Assembly: GCF_000735135.1 (NCBI RefSeq)
Contig: NZ_JPLZ01000007.1
Coordinates: 1 to 64,000, forward strand
DNA length: 64,000 bases
Origin: Chryseobacterium sp. FH1
GTDB lineage: Bacteria; Bacteroidota; Bacteroidia; Flavobacteriales; Weeksellaceae
Reading direction: 5' to 3'
The notes under the pieces were generated by a model. The model saw nothing but the letters and a program-made list of their open reading frames with translations. It had not been told where the DNA came from and made no database searches. Both the position numbers and the translations under genes were made by a program. Shown one piece after another: positions 18,917-23,141 of the stretch (its first letter is position 1; each line of letters begins with the position of its first letter).

Positions 18917-19005
18917 TTATCCTGAGCAAAGTCGAAGGGCTATATCTTTTTTTGCCGAAGCTTTCCCCCAAGCAAAAAAAGGATGTCGCTACTATCGGGG
19001 CTATG
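18917..19005. repeat. Composite repeat: REP-like motif plus partial family A element
   Basis: First a TATCCTGAGCAAAGTCGAAGG motif (18919-18939). Then GGGCTATATCTTTTTTTGC (18937-18955), a spacer, GCAAAAAAAGGATGTCGC and TACTATC (about 18974-18999). The second part carries the central hairpin and one conserved flank of family A (copies at 4785 and 15961). It fills the gap between DUF2480 and lpxB. Confidence 0.6.
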
Positions 19006-19159: not shown

Positions 19160-20266
19160 TTGAAATATTACATTATTGCAGGCGAGGCTTCCGGCGATTT
19201 GCACGCTTCCAACCTGATGAAGGCCATCAAACTGAAAGACCCAAAAGCAGATTTCCGTTTTTGGGGTGGCGATTTGATGCAGAAGCAAGGCGGAACTATG
19301 GTCAAACATTACCGCGACTTGGCGTTTATGGGTTTTCTGGAAGTGGTTCAAAATCTAGGGACCATTCTCAATAATATCAAAATTTGCAAAAAAGACATTC
19401 AGGAATATAAACCAGATATGTTGATTTTGGTAGATTATCCAGGATTCAATTTGAGAATTGCGAAGTTTGCGAAAGATTTGGGAATCAAAGTGGTTTATTA
19501 TATTTCGCCACAACTTTGGGCTTGGAAGGAAGGTCGAGTGGAAACCATCCGGAAATATGTGGACGAAATGCTTGTCATTCTCCCATTCGAAAAGGATTTT
19601 TACAAGAAACACGACATAGAAACACATTTCGTAGGTCATCCGTTGCTTGATGCGATTGAAGGCTTGCAACCTGTTGATATTCAAAAATTTAAAGCGGAAA
19701 ACAATCTCAACGAAAAAGAAATCATCGCACTTTTGCCTGGTTCGAGGAAGCAGGAAGTCACAAAGATGCTGGAATTGATGTTGTCTGTAAGAAGTCATTT
19801 CACTGATTATCAATTCGTAATAGCTGGTGCGCCGAGCTTGGAAAAAGATTTCTATGAGCAATTTGTAGATGCTGATGTTCATTTCGTTTCCAACAAAACT
19901 TATGATTTGTTGAGATGTTCCAAAGGTGCTCTGGTAACGTCCGGAACCGCAACTTTGGAAACGGCTTTGCTCAATGTTCCAGAAGTCGTTTGCTACCGAG
20001 GAAGCCGAATTTCCTACGAAATTGGAAAACGGCTCATTAAAAATATCAAATATATTTCGCTCGTCAATCTGATTATGGACAAGGAAGTGGTGACGGAATT
20101 GATTCAAAATGAACTGAATACAACTAATTTAGTTAAAGAACTTAATAAAATACTCAAAACAGAAAAACGCGAACAAGTGTTGAATGACTACGAGATTTTA
20201 CGTTCAAAATTAGGCGGAAGTGGCGCGAGCAATAACGCATCGGAAATCATCGTAAACTTGAAATAA
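19160..20266 (+). CDS. lpxB: Lipid-A-disaccharide synthase
   Basis: 368 aa. Joins UDP-2,3-diacylglucosamine and lipid X to make the lipid A disaccharide at the inner face of the cytoplasmic membrane. Signatures: KYYIIAGEASGDLHASNLMKAI at the N-terminus, YISPQLWAWKEGR, FVGHPLLD and ALLPGSRKQEV. The conserved N-terminus begins exactly at the TTG at 19160, with no ATG nearby, so TTG is the likely start. The stop overlaps the next start (TAATG). Confidence 0.96.
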   Translation: MKYYIIAGEASGDLHASNLMKAIKLKDPKADFRFWGGDLMQKQGGTMVKHYRDLAFMGFLEVVQNLGTILNNIKICKKDIQEYKPDMLILVDYPGFNLRIAKFAKDLGIKVVYYISPQLWAWKEGRVETIRKYVDEMLVILPFEKDFYKKHDIETHFVGHPLLDAIEGLQPVDIQKFKAENNLNEKEIIALLPGSRKQEVTKMLELMLSVRSHFTDYQFVIAGAPSLEKDFYEQFVDADVHFVSNKTYDLLRCSKGALVTSGTATLETALLNVPEVVCYRGSRISYEIGKRLIKNIKYISLVNLIMDKEVVTELIQNELNTTNLVKELNKILKTEKREQVLNDYEILRSKLGGSGASNNASEIIVNLK

Positions 20267-20724
20267 TGGATAAAATCGAATTACAACTTCAAAAGATAGA
20301 ATCACTTTTATCCCAAATTGTCGTTACAAATGAGAAGGTTTCCAAAGCTTCGGTTGGTTGGCATCTCGAACATTTGTTGTTGATTCTGAACAGCAGTTTG
20401 AAAGGTTTAACGATGACGAATCCGAAAGATTACCATCCGAAATTTAGTTTGAAGAAATTTGTTTTCCTCAATTTTGGAATGATTCCAAGAGGAAAGATAC
20501 GCGCGCCAAAACAATTCATTCCATTAGAAGTCCCAACTCAGGAAAGTATTTTGAAACTGATTAATCTGGCAAAAGAAAGATTGAAAGCTGTGGAGAACCT
20601 TCCTGAAAAATCATTTATCACACATCCTTTTTTAGGCGATTTTGATAAGAAAACAACGCTTAGGTTTTTGTGGCTTCATAGCAATCACCATTTGAAAATT
20701 GTGGATGATATTTTGAGAAATTGA
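20266..20724 (+). CDS. DUF1569 (DinB-like four-helix) protein
   Basis: 152 aa, helical. Histidines in SVGWHLEHLLLIL and LWLHSNHHLKIVDDIL are spaced like the metal ligands of DinB/YfiT proteins, and the overall pattern fits DUF1569. It overlaps lpxB by the TAATG junction, suggesting co-translation, though no direct link to lipid A synthesis is known. Function unknown. Confidence 0.75.
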   Translation: MDKIELQLQKIESLLSQIVVTNEKVSKASVGWHLEHLLLILNSSLKGLTMTNPKDYHPKFSLKKFVFLNFGMIPRGKIRAPKQFIPLEVPTQESILKLINLAKERLKAVENLPEKSFITHPFLGDFDKKTTLRFLWLHSNHHLKIVDDILRN

Positions 20725-20802: not shown

Positions 20803-20840
20803 TTTTTCTCGCAGATTTTGCAGATAAGGCAGATTTTTAT
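20803..20840 (+). repeat. Left inverted repeat of the GxxExxY cassette
   Basis: CTCGCAGATTTTGCAGATAAGGCAGATTTTT (20808-20838) matches the reverse complement of 21296-21326 with only two substitutions in the core (A/T and A/G). It lies 35 bp before the GxxExxY start. Confidence 0.75.
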
Positions 20841-20874
20841 GAATTTATTTTTAAATTTATAAAAACATAACATA

Positions 20875-21255
20875 ATGACTGAGAATGAGATTTCATATTT
20901 GGTTCGAAAAGCGATTTTCAATGTTTATAATGGGTTAGGTCCAGGTCTATTGGAGTCGGTTTATCATAAAGTGTTGGTGTATGAACTTGAGGATTTAGGA
21001 TTAGAGGTCAAATCTGAGTTGCCAGTTTCTGTGATTTATAATAATGTTGTTTTCGATTGTGAATTTAGAATAGATATTTTAGTTGAAGATAGCGTGATTG
21101 TGGAATTGAAATCTGTGAAAGAATTGGAGAATGTTCATTTCAAACAAGTCTCAACTTATTTAAAATTGTCAGATAAAAGACTGGGGATTTTGGTTAATTT
21201 TAATACAGATAATATTTTAGATTCTATAAAAAGAATAGTAAATAAGTTAGAATAA
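20875..21255 (+). CDS. GxxExxY family protein (PDDEXK-type nuclease fold)
   Basis: 126 aa. The signature GLGPGLLESVYHKVL gives the GxxExxY motif. A later FRIDILVEDSVIVELKSV carries D and ExK residues in the PDDEXK arrangement, then QVSTYLKLSDKRLGILVNFN. The family is sporadic across bacteria, often in several copies per genome, and its function is not established. Inverted near-identical repeats bracket the gene (20803-20840, 21260-21326), suggesting that gene and repeats move or are maintained together. Confidence 0.9.
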   Translation: MTENEISYLVRKAIFNVYNGLGPGLLESVYHKVLVYELEDLGLEVKSELPVSVIYNNVVFDCEFRIDILVEDSVIVELKSVKELENVHFKQVSTYLKLSDKRLGILVNFNTDNILDSIKRIVNKLE

Positions 21256-21259
21256 TTCT

Positions 21260-21326
21260 CTCGCTGATTCTGCATTTTGGCAGATTAATATGATGAAAAA
21301 TCTGCCCTATCTGCAAAATCAGCGAG
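21260..21326. repeat. Long imperfect palindrome after the GxxExxY gene
   Basis: Left arm CTCGCTGATTCTGCATTTTGGCAGATT (21260-21286), right arm AAATCTGCC..TGCAAAATCAGCGAG (21298-21326). About 27 bp per arm with few mismatches and an 11-nt loop. The right arm is the inverted counterpart of the copy at 20808. It could act as a cruciform/hairpin end or as a terminator, though no T-run follows directly. Confidence 0.8.
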
Positions 21327-21347
21327 AATAAAATACCACAGAAAGAC

Positions 21348-23141
21348 GTGAACAAACAACCTTTGCTCATTTTAGTAATCTGTCTCATACTTGGAATTCT
21401 TCTCCAAGAGTATTTGATTTTGAGCAAATTAACTGTTTTTAGTTTGTTGATTTTCGCCGGAATTTCTTTAATTTCAATCCTCATCAAAGCTCCATTTTTC
21501 CAGAAGACAAAATATTATTTTTTAGGTTTTTTCTTTTTCTCGATTGGAATTTTCATCCATTTTCAAAATTCTCACAAACCAGCAATTCCAACTTTAAAAG
21601 AAAAAGAAAATATTGTTTTTCAACTCAGCAAAAAACTGAATTCCAATGAAAAGAACAGAAGATATTTCGTTGAAATCTTAGCAATTCCTTCAAACGAAAT
21701 TAAAGATTTCTCTCCAATCAAAACAGTTCTCAGCATTCCGAAAGAACAGGAGCAATTGGATTTTGACCATTTTTATAATTCCGAAATTTACATTCATCAG
21801 CCAGAAAAAATTAACAATGATTTTCAGTTTGATTATAGAAAATATCTCGCAAGACAAGATGTCTTTCTGCAAGCTTATTTACCAAATGAAATTCTGAAAA
21901 CTGCGAAAACTGAAGTTTTCTTTCCGGATAAAATTCGACAAAAATGTCTTGATATTCTCAACAAAATTAATCAAACGCCACTTTCTCCAAAGATTCAGGA
22001 ATTTCTGAAAGGCATTATTTTGTCAGATAGAACTGAGATGGACAAAGAAACGGTCAACGATTTCAATCAAACTGGTTTGGTGCATTTGCTGGCGATTTCT
22101 GGCTCGCATATGGTGATTATTTTCTGGATGACTTTGTTTGTTTTGAATCAAATCATCCCTGTCAAGTTTCGGAAGCTTTCAATTATTCTCAGTCTAGCTT
22201 TGATTTGGGCTTTTGCTATTTTTATAGATTACGGAAGCTCTGTGATGCGGAGTTGTCTGATGATTTCGTGTTATTACGTGATGGTTTTGTTGCAACGGAA
22301 GTCGGATTTGTTGCATTCTCTGGCGTTGTCGGCCTTCATTCTTTTAATTGTCGATTCCAATCAGTTTTTCGATGTAGGATTTCAATTGAGTTATGTCGCG
22401 GTTTTGGGAATTTGGTGGTTGTCTGGACCGATTAAAAAGCTTTTTCGAAAACCAAGATATTGGCTGGAAGATTTCATTTACAGCATCACGGCGATGACTT
22501 TTTCTGCACAGATTGCGACTTTGCCATTGGCGATTTATTATTTCCATCAATTTTCGTTAGTGTCCATTTTTGCGAATTTGCTCATCATTCCACTTTCCGA
22601 AATTATCATTATCTCATCCTTGTTAATGGTAATTGCAATCGCTTTTGGAATGAAATATCTCTTGATATTTCAGATTTTCGATGCGTTTATCCTTTATGTC
22701 TTGAAAGCTATTCATTGGTTTTCCAGCTTCGAATCGTTGATGAATAAAAATATTCCGTTAAATATTTTGGAAGTCGGTGCTTTACTTTTGGGAATTTATT
22801 TCTTGAAATTTTTAATCAAAGATTTGTTTAATTTGAAATATCTGCTTCGATTCAGTTTTTGTCTTCTGTTGTTTTTCGGATTGAGAATCGGTTTTAATTA
22901 TTATAATTTTGAGAAAGAGGAAGTTCTTGTTCATCATTTTTATAAAGAAAAAATCATCAGCATTAAAAAGAAAAGTCAAATTGTTTTCTGGCTTAAGGAA
23001 AATAAAAATGAAGAGAAAATTAAAGATTTTGTGATAACTCCATATTTGATTTCTAGGCGAATTTCTGATTTTGAAATCAAATACTATCCTGAAGATTCTG
23101 AAGCTTTTGTGTTTGAAGGTAATAAATTTGAGTTAAAATAG
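21348..23141 (+). CDS. comEC: ComEC/Rec2-family competence protein
   Basis: 597 aa polytopic inner-membrane protein; in known systems ComEC forms the DNA uptake channel. The start is GTG at 21348 (MNKQPLLILVICLILGILLQ), right after the palindrome. The N-terminal DUF4131-like region is about 1-180. The Competence domain is about 195-480, with GLVHLLAISGSHMVII and SVMRSCLM. No C-terminal metallo-beta-lactamase domain is evident, which is common in Bacteroidetes. Confidence 0.9.
   Translation: MNKQPLLILVICLILGILLQEYLILSKLTVFSLLIFAGISLISILIKAPFFQKTKYYFLGFFFFSIGIFIHFQNSHKPAIPTLKEKENIVFQLSKKLNSNEKNRRYFVEILAIPSNEIKDFSPIKTVLSIPKEQEQLDFDHFYNSEIYIHQPEKINNDFQFDYRKYLARQDVFLQAYLPNEILKTAKTEVFFPDKIRQKCLDILNKINQTPLSPKIQEFLKGIILSDRTEMDKETVNDFNQTGLVHLLAISGSHMVIIFWMTLFVLNQIIPVKFRKLSIILSLALIWAFAIFIDYGSSVMRSCLMISCYYVMVLLQRKSDLLHSLALSAFILLIVDSNQFFDVGFQLSYVAVLGIWWLSGPIKKLFRKPRYWLEDFIYSITAMTFSAQIATLPLAIYYFHQFSLVSIFANLLIIPLSEIIIISSLLMVIAIAFGMKYLLIFQIFDAFILYVLKAIHWFSSFESLMNKNIPLNILEVGALLLGIYFLKFLIKDLFNLKYLLRFSFCLLLFFGLRIGFNYYNFEKEEVLVHHFYKEKIISIKKKSQIVFWLKENKNEEKIKDFVITPYLISRRISDFEIKYYPEDSEAFVFEGNKFELK

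Follow-up and report, generated by a model that had tools for sequence, protein, structure and literature searches.

The window, a stretch of 64,000 nt, carries a short gene of the GxxExxY family set between inverted arms (Table 1). The unit is built as arm, gene and then a hairpin of arm, loop and inverted arm, and it lies between DUF1569 and comEC with every gene on the plus strand. The sequence-only reading, a first annotation made from the letters alone, had placed lpxB, DUF1569 and comEC next to the unit, and the profile matches agree.

Table 1. Coordinates of the arms, the GxxExxY gene and the adjoining genes in the window
Feature	Position	Strand	Evidence and remarks
DUF1569 gene, upstream neighbour, co-directional	20266..20724	+	PF07606
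Upstream arm (TTTTTCTCGCAGATTTTGCAGATAAGGCAGATTTTT)	20803..20838	+	3 GCAGAT units, 9-nt spacing; inverted repeat I1, pairs with 21296-21331
GxxExxY / PDDEXK_3 gene, 126 aa	20875..21255	+	TIGR04256, PF13366; alignments; AlphaFold2 model
First, direct-oriented arm of downstream hairpin (CTCGCTGATTCTGCATTTTGGCAGATT)	21259..21287	+	Inverted repeat I5; direct match to upstream arm
Downstream inverted arm (AAAAATCTGCCCTATCTGCAAAATCAGCGAGAATAA)	21296..21331	-	Repeat, folding and simulation results
comEC, downstream neighbour, co-directional	21348..23141	+	PF03772

A repeat search pairs the upstream arm with the downstream inverted arm over 36 nt at 92% complementarity. The inverted repeats described in the sequence-only reading are therefore present, but with three mismatches in 36 nt and not the two core changes that it had counted. 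A second inverted pair (21259-21274 / 21312-21327) forms the hairpin downstream of the gene, where a third arm completing a palindrome had been proposed. Folding energies for this hairpin are -32.9 kcal/mol (z -7.8) as RNA and -19.9 kcal/mol (z -6.5) as DNA, and none of the shuffled sequences folds equally well in either form. The inverted alignment between the upstream and downstream flanks scores 57, whereas the maximum of 5000 first-order Markov simulations is 35. Simulation and shuffles together rule out a chance palindrome at the locus. A known structured RNA was also considered and rejected, the comparison of the hairpin with Rfam giving only sub-threshold matches to eukaryotic microRNAs. 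Elsewhere in the window, positions 18922-18937 hold a degenerate copy of another dispersed repeat, CTGAGCGGAGTCGAAG, which occurs in intergenic spacers of these genomes (e.g. locus L441 of G018).

The window protein is confidently predicted to be a Cas4-like PD-(D/E)xK nuclease with complete motifs. It matches TIGR04256 (E 2.6e-39, 134.2 bits against a cut-off of 35) and PF13366, PDDEXK_3 (E 1.4e-38), in line with its first description as a GxxExxY protein with PDDEXK residues. Alignments locate the full motif set at G24xxE27xxY30, D67, E77xK79, Q91xxxY95 and N108F109. G24xxE27xxY30 is invariant in the family alignment, and E27, D67, E77xK79 and Q91xxxY95, which make up the RecB/Cas4-like nuclease set, are invariant or nearly so. 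The AlphaFold2 model (pLDDT 94.9, pTM 0.88) has as its top PDB match the Cas4 protein SSO0001 (4ic1, Z 9.9 over 103 residues), with weaker structural matches to Hjc resolvases and another Cas4 at Z of about 7 and with lambda exonuclease among the Foldseek matches. By sequence, no relative with a solved structure was found. The 126-aa protein contains a single cysteine and hence would not hold an iron-sulphur cluster. A family query against phage records and viral contigs gave no match, and a phage or viral origin was rejected; a defence system was likewise rejected, since PADLOC yields only weak matches to PDC-M36A and Cas4.

Association of the gene with converging arms

The genome that contains the window (3.98 Mb) was screened for repeats by pattern search. 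It has five full-length GxxExxY genes, all five with inverted arms of distinct sequence: CACAAAGGCACAAAG with AAGGCACGAGGTTTAACTTCG; CGCAAAGGCGG; CCACATAGACACATAG; CTCGCAGATTTTGCAGAT, at the window locus; and CGCAAAGTGCGCAAAG. Among 59 related genomes the gene is found in 34, with 1 to 8 matches per gene-bearing genome in the genus of the window. Among 90 genes from the relatives, the inverted match between a gene's own flanks lies above the 95th percentile for cross-locus pairs in 69%; this control is conservative, as the loci have a repeat style in common.

For a second set, 80 contigs from named Bacteroidota records gave 77 usable genes. Here the cross-locus score failed as a control because the CACAGAG style is common to all loci, and an orientation-aware motif test with offset windows as controls was used instead, in which the tandem unit CRCNRRK-N(1-4)-CRCNRRK was sought within 300 nt of the gene. 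Units converge on the gene from at least one side at 95% of the 77 genes and from both sides at 62%; they diverge on both sides at 6%. By direction, 87% of the genes have forward units upstream and 29% reverse units upstream, while 70% have reverse units downstream and 13% forward units downstream. Converging units occur in 4% of offset windows of the same contigs, 1% of random window positions and 0% of PF05635 genes. Applied to the genus, the same strict regular expression detects 42% of arms, which is an under-count because arms of the CATAG, CACAAAAG and GCAGATTT types fall outside it. The sequence-only reading had taken the locus for a repeat-bounded unit of a nuclease and its own ends and had proposed surveying the flanks of GxxExxY genes; with the same repeat style beside nearly all of the named genes, the survey supports that view.

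Beyond this set, inspection of individual records revealed ACCGCAGAGGACGCAGAGG hairpins on both sides of a GxxExxY gene on a Gemmatirosa plasmid record, CGCGAAGGCGCGAGGACGCGAAG upstream of such a gene within fabD-fabG on a Sphingomonas plasmid record, and CACAGAG arms on Bacteroides and Bernardetia plasmid records. Treponema and Fusobacteria have inverted repeats or hairpins of different sequence, and the Prevotella and Persicobacter records have repeats in other styles. The converging-arm style thus recurs in Gemmatimonadota and Pseudomonadota, and Spirochaetota and Fusobacteriota have other inverted repeats or hairpins. Of 164 GxxExxY genes, 147 run in sense with the genes on either side and 5 run antisense to both (baseline of the window 31/52, p 4e-6). 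This bias suggests that the gene probably depends on host transcription.

Arm sequence tracks protein subfamily across genera. At two loci of other genera, with different neighbours (L070 and L083), the proteins are 76-77% identical to that of the window, and the minimal arm-gene-arm unit carries the same CTCGCAGATTT arms. Arm units take the form C-purine-C-N-purine-purine-G/T, or variants such as GCAGAT, CACATAG and CACAAAAG, repeated at about one helical turn. When the last base of the unit (T for GCAGAT-like and G for CACAAAG-like units) is mapped onto a quickly built tree of 60 non-redundant proteins, in which many branches are weak, it changes twice, compared with a minimum of 6 and a mean of 10.3 in 1000 shuffles. 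The two T-ending clades have SH-aLRT values of 90 and 99. For the full unit labels the tree requires 27 changes, and no shuffle needs fewer than 31. The tree test took the place of a Mantel test, for which context clustering had over-merged the loci (30 in one cluster). Units are spaced with a periodicity of 10.6 nt (vector strength 0.74, n=765), the peaks falling at 10, 20-21 and 30-31; in the window's own arms the spacing is 9 nt. Such a period would place the units on one face of duplex DNA and points to protein binding sites.

Gene-less copies and turnover of sites

Some further CTCGCAGATTT sites in the genome of the window are hairpins without a gene, e.g. L002, L004 and L005. The sequence-only reading had held that gene and repeats form no unit if the repeats occur mostly without the gene or the gene mostly without the repeats. 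Repeats do occur mostly alone, with 21 CTCGCAGATTTNGC sites to one such gene in this genome, but the gene is almost never found without repeats. Since the gene-less copies have the same ends as gene-bearing units, this is the pattern of non-autonomous derivatives and not of chance neighbours.

The shared ends are seen in the CATAG family. Its CCACATAGNCACATAG sites form plus/minus pairs about 75-110 nt apart, with zero cases of the reversed pattern. Each end of a gene-less CATAG unit has a ACCACATAGRCACATAG box followed 10-30 nt further in by AAGRTAAAATAGA, and both boxes recur next to the gene in the gene-bearing units of the family. Some gene-less CATAG units (L219, L220, L221, L230 and others), about 190 nt in total, contain in addition a third, outermost inverted repeat, AGAGCCTGTTTAAA ... 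TTTAAACAGGCTCT. The gene-less hairpins show no bias in the orientation of their neighbours.

Copy number appears to vary with the matching gene, to a degree that differs between families. The seven genomes with the matching gene have 16-45 CATAG sites and the other sixteen have 0-19 (Mann-Whitney p 1e-4, kinship ignored). For AAAAG-type sites (CCACAAAAG) the relation of counts to gene presence has p 0.026, again with kinship ignored, and for the window's own GCAGAT-type arms (CTCGCAGATTT) it is weak within the genus (p 0.07, kinship ignored). Across 13 other genera of the family, the two genomes with a matching gene have 9 (G028) and 14 (G033) GCAGAT-type sites, the other eleven 0 or 2. Many CATAG repeats are nevertheless found in G003, G018 and G022, in which no CATAG-type gene was detected, and G052, from another family, has 33 GCAGAT sites with no matching gene among those examined. 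Repeat-rich genomes of this kind call for a recent loss of the gene or another source of the repeats.

Nineteen gene-less hairpins of the genome of the window were located in four close relatives. Many of these sites are polymorphic. Some are cleanly empty, as at L221 in three relatives; at others the same position is occupied by a hairpin from a different arm family or by a hybrid of two, and at some a relative has an ordinary terminator. The hybrid hairpins at the L232 and L237 sites combine a CATAG arm with a CACAAAAG arm, which suggests exchange between arm families.

Four gene-bearing sites were compared in the same way. In relatives missing the gene, alignment of the coding flanks extends roughly to the stop and start codons, but the spacer between them is unrelated, often with another dispersed repeat. 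Comparison of occupied and empty sites at these four positions revealed no target-site duplication; the whole intergenic spacer is replaced, which is not the footprint of textbook transposition. The spacers that hold a GxxExxY unit at L007 and L010 contain, in G014, G003 and G020 (L440, L442, L443, L432, L433, L435), GTTGATGG / CAACAACCAAC repeats that resemble those beside PF05635 genes, and different repeat systems seem to swap within one intergenic slot.

The orthologous site in relatives was located with comEC as the anchor. Two distant species of the genus, G015 and G022, have an intact copy of the window's unit there; in G006, G008 and G009 the unit is interrupted or has decayed, the nearest relatives show no more than traces of its upstream arm, and others lack it altogether. 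This pattern fits a long vertical presence with repeated loss, and repeated gain is also possible. At the comEC site of G001 (L106) and of G014, G003 and G020 (L102-L104), the gene and downstream arm are gone and sequence like the upstream end and 5' leader leads into comEC, likely a deletion relic.

Interpretation and alternatives

We think it probable that the GxxExxY locus of the window is a gene-bearing form of a dispersed unit with palindromic ends, which resembles REPIN-RAYT systems but has an unrelated nuclease presumed to act on the arms. This reading draws on the unit itself, the co-specificity of protein and arms, the dispersal of gene-less copies with shared ends and the polymorphism of their sites; the nuclease would act on the arms and spread or maintain them. 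The GxxExxY protein would bind its own arms, recognising either phased sites on double-stranded DNA or a cruciform, and would cut at the bound arms or cruciform, and repair from another copy would then spread or restore the unit, gene-less versions included. Replacement of the slot without target duplication is a better fit to repair than to classical transposition. A gene reliant on host transcription would explain the sense orientation in operons.

An RNA-level selfish unit, comparable to the intervening sequences of 23S rRNA, is one alternative. Its arms would pair in the polycistronic mRNA, RNase III would cut the stem and the ORF would ride in the loop, with a protein inactive on the DNA repeats. 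The position of the ORF within the loop of a long stem, the sense orientation of GxxExxY genes in operons and the existence of an RNase III-cut Coxiella IVS of the same plan (PMC4990558) are all consistent with it. Gene-less hairpins, however, lie in every orientation to their neighbours, helical phasing and protein-arm co-specificity indicate recognition of DNA, and the predicted fold is that of a DNA nuclease, so that we regard this account as unlikely. Alternatively, the repeats may be older dispersed hairpins, serving as terminators or landing pads, into which the nuclease gene inserts in the fashion of a homing endonuclease. The large excess of gene-less copies over genes, the ordinary terminators at some sites in a relative and the occupation of the same slot by different repeat families in different species would all suit such an origin. 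It sits poorly with the tracking of protein subfamily by arm sequence over genera, with the apparently higher copy number in genomes that have the matching gene, and with the relatives that lack the gene at a site, which generally lack that hairpin as well; we give it a low probability.

A different mobile element, above all the RAYT (Y1) transposases of the same genomes, might mobilise the arms and carry the GxxExxY gene as a passenger. Of 23 genomes of the genus, 21 carry RAYT-type genes. At 20 RAYT loci, however, the repeats are classical REPs (e.g. GCTCCGTAGGAGCGACC), with no instance of the three arm families that were looked for, and G005 contains 54 CCACAAAAG sites yet no Y1 gene. The REPs and the G005 case exclude RAYTs as the likely driver, and a passenger role for the GxxExxY gene is very improbable.

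The preferred reading, of a nuclease unit that acts on its own ends, extends to a wider proposal that we offer tentatively, as possible but less than probable. GxxExxY units may be mobile elements that cross phyla, whose sole protein is a Cas4-like PD-(D/E)xK nuclease recognising helically phased end repeats, and which spread by cutting and repair into intergenic slots, replace the resident hairpin and give rise to much of the dispersed hairpin content of Bacteroidota. In the literature searched, which left most subscription journals and preprints outside, GxxExxY appears as an annotation only, with no flanking or dispersed repeats described. Within the same limits, work on dispersed or palindromic repeats of this phylum offers no link to GxxExxY and no precedent. 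The unit type is very common, yet apparently undescribed. It gives a large family with no known function a concrete, testable substrate, and it is a candidate source for dispersed palindromes (CACAGAG, CACAAAG, GCAGATTT) of Bacteroidota genomes, for which no explanation was found. If true, the proposal would also bear on the turnover between species of intergenic hairpins, which may double as terminators.

Comparison with known systems

The intervening sequence of Coxiella 23S rRNA carries an ORF as well as terminal inverted repeats; it is cleaved by RNase III and is presumed selfish (PMC4990558). In the window, too, the loop of a long inverted repeat contains a short ORF, but the unit lies between DUF1569 and comEC and not in 23S rRNA, and its PF13366 protein is unrelated to S23p (PF05635). 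Genes for PF05635 four-helix-bundle proteins, the 23S IVP family (L159-L186), have inverted flanks of another style (GTTGTCGGTTGTCGG, AGAATAAAGAGAAAAGA, TAGATAATAGACGG), and all 27 of the 27 tested are in the sense orientation between co-directional genes. These genes and their flanking repeats are possibly a sister system.

With Cas4 the window protein shares the predicted nuclease fold (4ic1, Z 9.9) and the E-x-K and QxxxY (Q91xxxY95) motifs, but it consists of the nuclease core only, without the iron-sulphur cysteines, and its gene adjoins lpxB, DUF1569 and comEC rather than cas genes or a CRISPR array. As in insertion sequences and their MITEs, non-autonomous copies share the bipartite ends of the gene-bearing copy; unlike these, the four gene sites have no target-site duplication.

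REPIN-RAYT systems comprise dispersed REPIN hairpins of 71 and 110 bp and repeat families each found near a specific protein, with repeats more numerous in gene-bearing genomes (PMC3116915, PMC8049555). GxxExxY units are like such REPtrons in pairing a small gene with inverted flanking repeats, in their dispersed intergenic doublet hairpins of comparable size (about 110 nt for CATAG doublets) and in having several repeat families, each near a specific GxxExxY protein. They differ in the enzyme: GxxExxY is predicted to be a PD-(D/E)xK nuclease, whereas RAYTs are HUH tyrosine transposases, and the only Pfam and NCBIfam assignments of the window protein are PDDEXK_3 / GxxExxY. Their arms consist of tandem units in helical phase and carry no GTAG tag, and the gene is multi-copy, with 1-8 in each genus genome that has it. 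The Y1 genes of these genomes lie at loci of their own, with other repeats. The RAYT genes of the genus (L400-L418) have their own REP families, GCTCCGTAGGAGCGACC, TTGGCTTTAGCCAA and GTCGC-GAGCGAC, and the two systems exist side by side.

In TIRtrons a gene is bounded by long terminal inverted repeats, which make up dispersed families (PMC3733652). The GxxExxY gene also lies within inverted repeats of dispersed families, whereas TIRYTs are tyrosine transposases without a PD-(D/E)xK nuclease. In architecture the unit is nearest to REPtrons and TIRtrons, but the enzyme that defines them is absent; if the proposal holds, GxxExxY would be a second, independent solution to the role of RAYT, provided by an enzyme of the Cas4/RecB fold.
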